A stretch of 64,000 nt of DNA from Tolypothrix brevis GSE-NOS-MK-07-07A (lineage in GTDB: Bacteria > Cyanobacteriota > Cyanobacteriia > Cyanobacteriales > Nostocaceae): NCBI GenBank assembly GCA_019358985.1, contig JAHHIJ010000019.1:1-64000 (forward strand), given 5' to 3'. A program made the translations under genes and the position numbers. Positions 5,906 to 7,810 of this stretch are shown here, piece after piece. The notes beneath the pieces are model-generated. The model was not told the origin of the DNA. It searched no databases and saw only the letters and a program-made list of their open reading frames with translations. Within the stretch, counting starts at the first letter, position 1. Every line of letters starts with the position of its first letter.

Positions 5906-6718
5906 TTATACTTTATAAATGGCTTCCTCGCTATTGTCTAAAAAATTGTTCTCCTTCATAATCTCATAAAGATAAATATCTTTTTCTAACAAACAGGCAT
6001 GTCCACTATAAGGTAATACTACCATTTTTGGATTAGGTAAAATATTGACTAAACGTTCGGCTTCAGTTACAGAAGGTAAAAGGCGATCGTCACCACCAGC
6101 AATTATCAAAACTGGTTGAGTCAGGGTGCGTAATTGCTTATCATTAATATGAAATTCTCGTAATAATGATATTCGCCAGAGGACGGTTTGTGGTGGTACA
6201 TAACGCATACTTTTGAGAAGTTCTTGACGATCGCCTCTCGCAATTCTCCCCAATGATGCTAAAAATGGCAATAGCCCCAATGCTCCAACATCATAAAGAT
6301 ATCCCGGTACCATGTTAGTTAATTGCGATGTCCAATTTAACCAAGGACGAAGATTTAAAGCCGAAGCTGAGTTAATGAGAATAATTCGCTTGAATAACTG
6401 CGGTGAAGCGATCGCAACTTTCATCGCCAAACAACCCCCAAATGACTCACCACACAAGTAAACTGGTCTAGAAGAACTTTTTAATTCTTGGTCGATTAAG
6501 TCCAATACGTTCTCAGTCAGATCCTCCCAATTAGTTAAATCTTCTCTTGGTATCGCCAAACAACGCACATCAAAACCGGCTTCTAAACCGGCAGTTTGCG
6601 ATCGCAATAATTGACCCGTTCCATCCATACCTGGTAAGTATACCAACAACGGATACTCTGGCTTTAGTTTTTTAGGTGTTAAAAAACACGGTTTGATCTC
6701 AACTTTTGGAATAGTCAT
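5906..6718 (-). CDS. Alpha/beta hydrolase
   Basis: A 270-residue alpha/beta-hydrolase-fold protein. It has the nucleophile elbow GESFGG (Ser), an acid in GGDDRLLPS and the catalytic His in YSGHACLLEKD. The opening YPLLVYLPGMDGTGQLL carries the oxyanion-hole region and resembles the hydrolase half of plant phytyl ester synthase-type proteins and their cyanobacterial relatives. The substrate is unknown; a lipid or ester is plausible by that similarity only. The ATG at 6718 was chosen because the upstream extension to 6754 translates the common dispersed GGGCAATGGGCATTGGGC repeat. Confidence 0.85.
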   Translation of the reverse strand: MTIPKVEIKPCFLTPKKLKPEYPLLVYLPGMDGTGQLLRSQTAGLEAGFDVRCLAIPREDLTNWEDLTENVLDLIDQELKSSSRPVYLCGESFGGCLAMKVAIASPQLFKRIILINSASALNLRPWLNWTSQLTNMVPGYLYDVGALGLLPFLASLGRIARGDRQELLKSMRYVPPQTVLWRISLLREFHINDKQLRTLTQPVLIIAGGDDRLLPSVTEAERLVNILPNPKMVVLPYSGHACLLEKDIYLYEIMKENNFLDNSEEAIYKV

Positions 6719-6845
6719 TAGTAAATTGGGCAATGGGCATTGGGCAATGAGCATTGGGCACGCTCGAATTAAAGACGCTTGATTTTTGATACGCGTTCTA
6801 TTCTAATAGCATTCTTTCAATGCCCAATGCCCAATGCCCCATTTA

Positions 6846-7025
6846 TTAATAACAACCTTCAAGCAATAATTTAGCAATTTTGCCATGACAGTGTTCTGTC
6901 AATTCGGCTACAACTTTTTTGCCTTGCTTGCACTGGTATTTTTCCTTATGTTGGGGTATAATGCAATAGGGACGACCAATTAATAAGGGTTTTGGGACAA
7001 TTAAGGGTAAAGCAGAAGTCCTGAT
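6846..7025 (-). pseudogene. Possible small gene or gene remnant without a clear start
   Basis: A minus-strand frame, open from 7025 to a TAA at 6846-6848, reads protein-like sequence including GRPYCIIPQHKEKYQC and ELTEHCHGKIAKLLLEGCY. There is no ATG, GTG or TTG at a sensible place, so it may be a truncated gene or use an unusual start. No family recognised. Cys- and His-rich character is the only visible feature. Confidence 0.3.
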
Positions 7026-7242: not shown

Positions 7243-7810
7243 TGGTACTTACCCCATATAATGATCATAGGCAAAGTGAATTGGACTTGACAACGCCTCC
7301 ATTAAAACTGGTGCATCCGTCAATAACTCAGGGAATCAACGCCACTGAGCTTGTAAGAAACAAGTCTTACGTGTTTGACTAGCTCATTAAGACGCAGTTT
7401 GGTACGAACTTCCGAATGCCTCCCTAGTTCGGATTATCTTCAAACTATCTTGTTAATGGTGTTGATCGAGGGCAAGACATCTTAACTGCGTTGAGCGAGG
7501 GGACTTAAACGTGAAATGCGCCGGGGGAAGCTTCCCCCGGTCACTTTCACAGGTTTGCTAGTTCCTGGAATTATATCCATTTAAAAACTAGCTTAATTTT
7601 CGCGGTGGTTAAAACCACCCGTGCCGTTTCCCTCTCAGCTTTGAAAAGCTGAGTTTCCCACATCCCGGTAAGTTTTATGAAGTTGCGATGATTGCTTACC
7701 ACCAACACATTTACATCTTGGGGAATGCGATTCTCGTAATAGCGAAACATTTTTATTGAGATCGTCCCTAGAAACGAGCGATAAATATCCAGAGGGCTAT
7801 TTACAGTCAT
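7243..7810 (-). pseudogene. plsC: 1-acylglycerol-3-phosphate acyltransferase (PlsC-like), split by an insertion
   Basis: The minus strand from 7810 reads MTVNSPLDIYRSFLGT...ENRIPQDVNVLVVSNHRNF, the N-terminus of a cyanobacterial PlsC-like acyltransferase up to the NHxxxxD motif. The continuation DAPVLMEALSSPIHFAYDHYMG resumes at 7318 after a 358-bp insert. Joining ..AACTTCAT to GGATGCACC.. restores NHRNFMDAP, including the catalytic His and Asp. After YMG the expected Gln is a TAA stop, and the rest has been lost to repeat DNA. In living members the enzyme makes phosphatidic acid. The copy cannot be functional here; a working paralogue must lie elsewhere. Confidence 0.85.
7319..7676 (-). mobile_element. 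358-bp non-autonomous IS200/IS605-like insert in plsC
   Basis: Bounds come from reconstructing the uninterrupted host gene. On the minus strand the insert follows TTCAT and creates no target duplication, as expected for IS200/IS605 elements that insert 3' of a short target motif. The left end carries hairpins CTCAGCTTTTCAAAGCTGAG and GGTGGTTTTAACCACC. The middle has the palindrome CCGGGGGAAGCTTCCCCCGG. The right end has CTCAGTGGCGTTGATTCCCTGAG. There is no tnpA or tnpB. A structured internal RNA (a solo omega RNA) is possible but unproven. Confidence 0.65.

Follow-up and report, generated by a model that had tools for sequence, protein, structure and literature searches.

What kind of DNA can split a plsC gene exactly inside its catalytic motif, how did it arrive there, and might it carry a guide RNA that acts on the gene it interrupts? 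These questions are raised by a locus in the window, a stretch of 64,000 nucleotides from contig C61 of the 6.5-Mb genome of a Nostocales cyanobacterium.

A 358-bp insert interrupts plsC inside its catalytic motif

The plsC pseudogene lies on the minus strand, with its ATG at 7810. Its 5′ part (7677-7810; PF01553 in its homologue) comprises codons 1-44 and part of codon 45, and is cut after NHRNF and the bases AT at 7677. The frame picks up at 7318 with MDAPVLMEALSSP, then TAA; in the locus alignment, the continuation reads MDAPVLMEALSSPIHFAYDHYMG (7256-7318, minus strand) and ends on TAA in place of the CAA of congeners. When the gene is rejoined through GGATGCACC at 7318, 358 bp further on, by cutting out 7319-7676, NHRNFMDAP is restored, and the split inside the catalytic motif claimed by the original prediction is exact in its coordinates.

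The flank search covered four other congeneric genomes. The flank is present in four of the five genomes of the genus, namely the host genome and congeners L056, L057 and L058, and the fifth genome is 54% complete. Each of the three congeners has plsC beside metG and a gene encoding an alpha/beta hydrolase, and reads GCAGCTTCAT directly followed by GGATGCACC at the junction (gap 0, duplication 0), with the empty site joined exactly between TTCAT and GGATGC. Hence, the empty site that had been reconstructed from the window alone exists as an uninterrupted locus in three congeners, and the proposed absence of a target duplication is borne out at each of the three junctions. In L057 and L058 the PlsC frame runs without interruption for 241 aa, and that of L057 matches PF01553 at 74.8 bits. 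We found 246 homologues of the congener protein and kept 80 named ones, the closest of which is from Hassallia byssoidea (95%); the motif NH[RH]SFMDA is uninterrupted in 80 of 80, and the insertion site reads TTCAT in 8 and TTTAT in 72.

Besides the change from CAA to TAA, alignment with the congeners reveals two further deletions in plsC of the window, the remnants of which extend beyond the TAA to about 6853; with the insert, the stop codon and the deletions, no intact acyltransferase with the NHx4D motif is encoded. The Gln-to-stop change that had been noted is therefore real, but its placement after the insertion is unsupported, since the order of the two events cannot be told. A MITE had also been held to complete the decay. 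The sequence in question, at 6714-6853, is an inverted repeat of 37 bp, imperfect and built from ATTGGGCA units, that sits directly behind the retained plsC stop codon and thus had no part in completing the decay, and we rejected it as a cause. Similar repeats occur at the same place behind plsC in L057 and L058. The plsC gene of L056, from which the insert is absent, is also broken by a frame break of its own, indicating that plsC is undergoing independent loss. There are five other acyltransferase matches in the host genome, from which we infer that loss of plsC may be tolerable. We regard the loss as a side effect; the gene also decays without the insert in one congener.

The insert carries an omega-RNA scaffold and lacks isrB

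What the original prediction overlooked is that the insert (7319-7676, plus strand) is an isrB-less OMEGA element with the plsC flank as the guide of its omega-RNA. An omega-RNA scaffold starting with GTCA occupies 7319-7510 on the plus strand, and matches HEARO, the Rfam model (RF02033) for the omega-RNAs of IsrB and IscB, over its full length (positions 1-211) with 44 bits and an E-value of 3.2e-7 in a 2.1-kb search. This score does not reach the RF02033 gathering score of 83 bits; two isrB-bearing copies in the same genome, on contigs C41 and C64, also score low (41.6 and 40.3 bits). The host genome has 39 HEARO matches, 26 of them over the cut-off. A group of HEARO matches that share a hairpin in the 5′ flank (L023 and L033 among them) was considered as RNAs with a fixed guide and set aside: these matches lie on the opposite strand of elements whose GTCA start is on the other one.

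Downstream of the scaffold, the place of isrB is taken by a linker with a hairpin, GCTAGTT...AACTAGC (7557-7592, plus strand), that we regard as the counterpart of the terminal hairpin of the omega-RNA. A second hairpin, CTCAGC...GCTGAG (7634-7653), is isrB-distal and presumably forms the left end for transposition, a role assigned from the IS200/IS605 superfamily; together with the first stem of the omega-RNA it provides the subterminal hairpins expected at both ends of an IS200/IS605 element. Neither the ORF list nor our reading of the linker contains an isrB ORF within the 358 bp, and the window has the triplet ATT where relatives carry the isrB ATG. An IsrB element would have isrB, whose product has PLMP, a RuvC split by the bridge helix and no HNH; because this gene is absent, we class the insert among isrB-less derivatives and not among IsrB elements proper.

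A 40-bp palindrome (7511-7550) stands at the border of omega-RNA and linker. Its core, CCGGGGGAAGCTTCCCCCGG, has two exact and three two-mismatch sites in the host genome (window 7511-7550, C43:80042-80061, C1:12892, C43:141231 and C44:65664), and the 40-bp palindrome also stands alone at C43:80042; possibly, it is a small dispersed palindromic repeat. Since a palindrome occupies the same place in L112, a copy from another genus, it marks a sublineage and is not a late local accident. In the linker hairpin of the window the closing pair is mispaired and one inner pair is broken, and these mismatches and the palindrome suggest that the window copy may itself be decaying.

DNA relatives of the insert were found in 64 of 117 genomes of the family, the host genome included. 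The closest, at locus L111 of genome G103 from another genus, shares 94% identity with the insert across 192 nt; its omega-RNA region, homologous to that of the insert and in the same orientation, is followed by a gene for a 383-aa protein. This protein matches DtIsrB (PDB 8dmb) over residues 2-356 (E 5.9e-51), with the Pfam domain RRXRR and no HNH. In the host genome we detected 10 matches to an IsrB-like protein, including those that identify L071 and L072 as carrying isrB; the isrB copies on C41 and C64 sit behind omega-RNAs that resemble the insert's, with identities of 76% and 71% to portions of the insert. One locus of the same genome, L034, has a full IscB profile with HNH and encodes a true IscB. 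HNH was thus detectable where present, so the domain test tells IscB from IsrB. We rejected an HNH-containing IscB as the partner of this subfamily: the proteins of C41 (L071), L111 and L053 have RRXRR only, and that of L111 matches IsrB. The Y1 transposase has six matches in the host genome, none of them in the insert and, by comparison of match positions in this genome, none adjoining an isrB match. Taking these features together, we consider it highly probable that the insert is a non-autonomous, isrB-less OMEGA transposon of the IsrB type.

The predicted guide lies in plsC beside ATGA

Because the scaffold begins at the very edge of the element, the guide would be plsC sequence. According to the accessible text of PMC9581776, DtIsrB has a guide length of 20 and a target-adjacent motif NTGA, and ATGA targets are cut. 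The predicted 20-nt guide of the insert occupies 7299-7318 (plus strand). These last 20 bases before the insert are matched 20 of 20 in all three congener empty sites, and over 30 bases 29-30 match. On the other side of the insert, ATGA (7677-7680, plus strand) combines the insertion target, TCAT on the other strand, with the predicted target-adjacent motif; thus, in three of three congeners, the sequence 5′ of the scaffold matches a target next to ATGA, an instance of NTGA.

We then asked which bases follow the right end in other copies. ATGA is found in 21 of 21 ORF-less relatives (22 of 22 with the window) and in 11 of 12 isrB-bearing elements, counts that cover 33 of 48 loci, the right end being unrecognizable, cut or not taken further in the other 15, and that may favour ATGA insofar as right ends were picked by eye from the end motif. 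The IS200/IS605-style target put forward for this insert therefore stands, with one amendment: what the copies have in common is TCAT (ATGA in the opposite orientation) rather than TTCAT. In L146 two right ends stand in tandem, of which the second was used in the count; each has ATGA directly behind it, which looks like reuse of the place by a second insertion. In four of the 12 isrB-bearing elements (L071, L111, L120 and L139) isrB terminates at the TGA contained in the flanking ATGA, such that the stop overlaps with a possible downstream start.

ORF-less relatives occupy sites that are empty in congeners

The design of the insert, in which a short linker without isrB joins the omega-RNA to the right end, recurs in 21 of the 48 loci that we read, from the host genome and several other genera. 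A tblastn search with the IsrB of G103 gave no match in 19 of these 21 copies; in L112 and L114 the match comprises the last residues only, located in the right end. When the flanks of other ORF-less copies in the host genome were joined and searched against the genus, an uninterrupted site came back for five of the five copies tested. For four of the five, alignment yielded gapless junctions in ten congener loci, one of which reads ATCA instead of ATGA and one of which has a gap further on; for the fifth, congener matches span the junction. Hence, these insertions are not common to the congeners that hold the empty sites. The original prediction would have been contradicted by direct repeats flanking other copies, and these were not seen at the four gapless junctions or the spanned one. 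In the window and in these five other copies, insertion has occurred next to a short fixed target, and duplication is absent. These related elements suggest that transposons consisting of little more than a guide RNA persist and spread among such cyanobacteria. L143 and L150, from two genomes, are ORF-less copies with identical flanks on both sides, indicating that some copies are inherited. The host genome also has a second, larger family of ORF-less HEARO elements with about 20 copies (L023-L046; for example L032:1501-1895; 19 of 26 loci tried were used), in which a conserved linker of about 190 nt replaces the protein gene.

Compensatory changes in the linker hairpin and scaffold

In IsrB elements, the terminal hairpin of the omega-RNA holds the ribosome-binding site before isrB, as described in the accessible part of PMC9581776. 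In 13 sequences from our isrB-bearing relatives, a hairpin within the first codons joins TACTC to GAGTA, and 85.9% of its cells are paired; the test is weak in that just one pair has a two-sided change. The ORF-less copies have instead a linker of about 40 nt that reads GGTTTGCTRGTTCCTGGGATTATATCCATTYAAAAACYAGCA with small changes, most of them with GGGATTATATCCATT at the place of the ribosome-binding site and ATG, and an 8-pair stem formed by GCTGGTT and AACCAGC or compensated variants. We examined covariation in 10 distinct linker sequences, having merged identical copies and dropped L115 (insertion), L142, L144 and L148 (indels) and L150 (identical to L143). Helix 1 has 97.5% of cells paired and three pairs with two-sided change. 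Of 500 shuffles, 0 reached the covariation score calculated for the structure as a whole, and this score was lower when partners were slid. Among the copies read, this hairpin is present in ORF-less copies alone. We read it as a rebuilt SL7, the terminal hairpin of the omega-RNA, a putative equivalence based on position.

The scaffold itself has two-sided changes at 34 of 47 pairs in 16 of the 22 ORF-less copies (left out were L074 and L112, which have long insertions, and L076, L124, L126 and L150). However, ORF-less and isrB-bearing copies are mixed in a scaffold tree of 48 rows, with 12 label changes, at least four of them forced, although several rows labelled isrB-bearing later proved unverified; with 37 checked rows (17 isrB-bearing, 20 ORF-less) there are 8 label changes, again at least four forced. 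Thus, either copies have swapped scaffolds or the ORF-less form originated repeatedly, and scaffold covariation may therefore partly predate loss of the ORF. Given this mixing, we do not accept scaffold covariation on its own as demonstrating that ORF-less copies are under selection. We also compared four sets of close ORF-less copies, one of which (L114/L115) is not a purely ORF-less clade in the tree: 24 two-sided changes kept pairing, 6 one-sided changes kept it and 17 broke it, with 0-2 two-sided changes in six slid controls. The linker hairpin and the close-set comparison are less open to the caveat of exchange or repeated origin.

These data bear on whether the insert is a dead relic, a possibility we take seriously and rate a little under even. 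On that account it is an internally deleted IsrB element in plsC that makes no useful RNA; TnpA alone would move ORF-less copies, and the omega-RNA would be carried along as its DNA overlaps the transposon end. The mixed trees agree with this, since scaffolds track the isrB-bearing copies, as does the state of the window copy, with its 40-bp insertion, mispaired closing pair, broken inner linker pair and low HEARO score; moreover, the accessible text of PMC9581776 indicates that the guide-adaptor region is important for transposition at the DNA level. A relic would not be expected, however, to have compensatory changes in a linker hairpin that lies outside the transposon ends, or to keep scaffold pairs distant from the end within ORF-less sets.

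ORF-less copies frequently end at a putative start codon

At the end of 17 of the 21 ORF-less copies, ATGA begins a frame 40 codons or more in length, compared with 24% of 2,525 background ATGA sites. Some of these frames, judged by eye, are presumably those of MiaB, ClpP or AtpA. The right end often reads GAGGTCTT immediately before ATGA (window 7670-7680; L073-L077, L112-L150), and the element may thus supply a ribosome-binding site to the gene downstream. The excess at start codons would fit a role in which ORF-less omega-RNAs serve IsrB or a relative in regulation at these codons and not in retention of the element. We regard this as very unlikely: what the guide matches is the empty site of the very element that carries it, the copy in the window does not adjoin a start codon, and survival bias, which may explain the location of ORF-less copies, accounts for such sites equally well. 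That the insert is a separate MITE whose likeness to HEARO arose by chance would suit a score under the Rfam cut-off, but is hardly credible, being contradicted by a 192-nt stretch that is 94% identical to the RNA region of a relative with an intact isrB and by a GTCA start, an ATGA end and an isrB leader core all the same as in isrB-bearing relatives.

Discussion

Miniature IS200/IS605 derivatives (MITE-like elements, PATEs) lack an ORF, keep their ends and are presumably moved in trans; the insert differs from them in carrying a whole guide-RNA gene and a conserved extra hairpin. ORF-less derivatives of IS200/IS605 elements, like IsrB and HEARO RNAs, have been described before. Reportedly, Weinberg in 2009 and Altae-Tran in 2021 described HEARO integration at ATGA or GTGA and standalone omega-RNAs, so the concept as such has probably been published. 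A literature search, at the level of titles and abstract openings, found no paper on isrB-less IsrB elements in cyanobacteria. The insert matches the full-length HEARO model RF02033 with the same start and orientation, and differs as a divergent subfamily that it has in common with the isrB-bearing copies on C41 and C64. It belongs with IscB elements (ISC) in superfamily and RNA family, whereas its closest partner protein lacks HNH. With the OMEGA system of DtIsrB (PDB 8dmb), as presented in the accessible text of PMC9581776, it has in common a 5′ guide, NTGA 3′ of the target and the IS200/IS605 superfamily; it differs by the absence of isrB, the new stem of the terminal hairpin and the ATT at the place of the isrB start codon. 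Without the palindrome, about 234 nt extend from the edge of the insert through the linker hairpin, compared with 284 nt for DtIsrB including the 20-nt guide. HEARO RNAs of Limnospira are set aside as mobile-intron remnants in the available text of PMC8400943, whereas in that of PMC12286853 a Limnospira HEARO RNA works with IsrB.

We propose that the insert, which appears to retain both transposon ends and a whole omega-RNA with its terminal hairpin but neither isrB nor tnpA, was placed beside TCAT in plsC by the Y1 transposase TnpA of another element, acting in trans. An omega-RNA would then be transcribed from the insert and, if made, would direct IsrB to nick an unoccupied plsC allele with ATGA. 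The isrB copies elsewhere in the genome could be the source of this IsrB. That IsrB uses this omega-RNA in trans is, on sequence grounds, conceivable at slightly less than an even chance. Nicking of the empty allele would favour restoration of the element after excision; restoration through cutting of the empty site has been proposed for TnpB. More broadly, and with comparable reserve, we put forward that Nostocaceae host long-lived transposons reduced to a guide RNA, which would have lost isrB, rebuilt the terminal hairpin around a new stem, without the coding constraint imposed by an adjacent isrB, and swapped scaffolds with isrB elements, and which would re-enter empty sites nicked by IsrB in trans, as parasites of the nickase.

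If the ORF-less copies supply omega-RNAs, one IsrB would serve many self-targeting guides per cell, and this, if true, would represent a step between a transposon nuclease acting in cis and a multi-guide, CRISPR-like system. The many guides in these genomes whose empty sites are known in sister species would form a natural set for testing what the transposon gains from nicking by IsrB.
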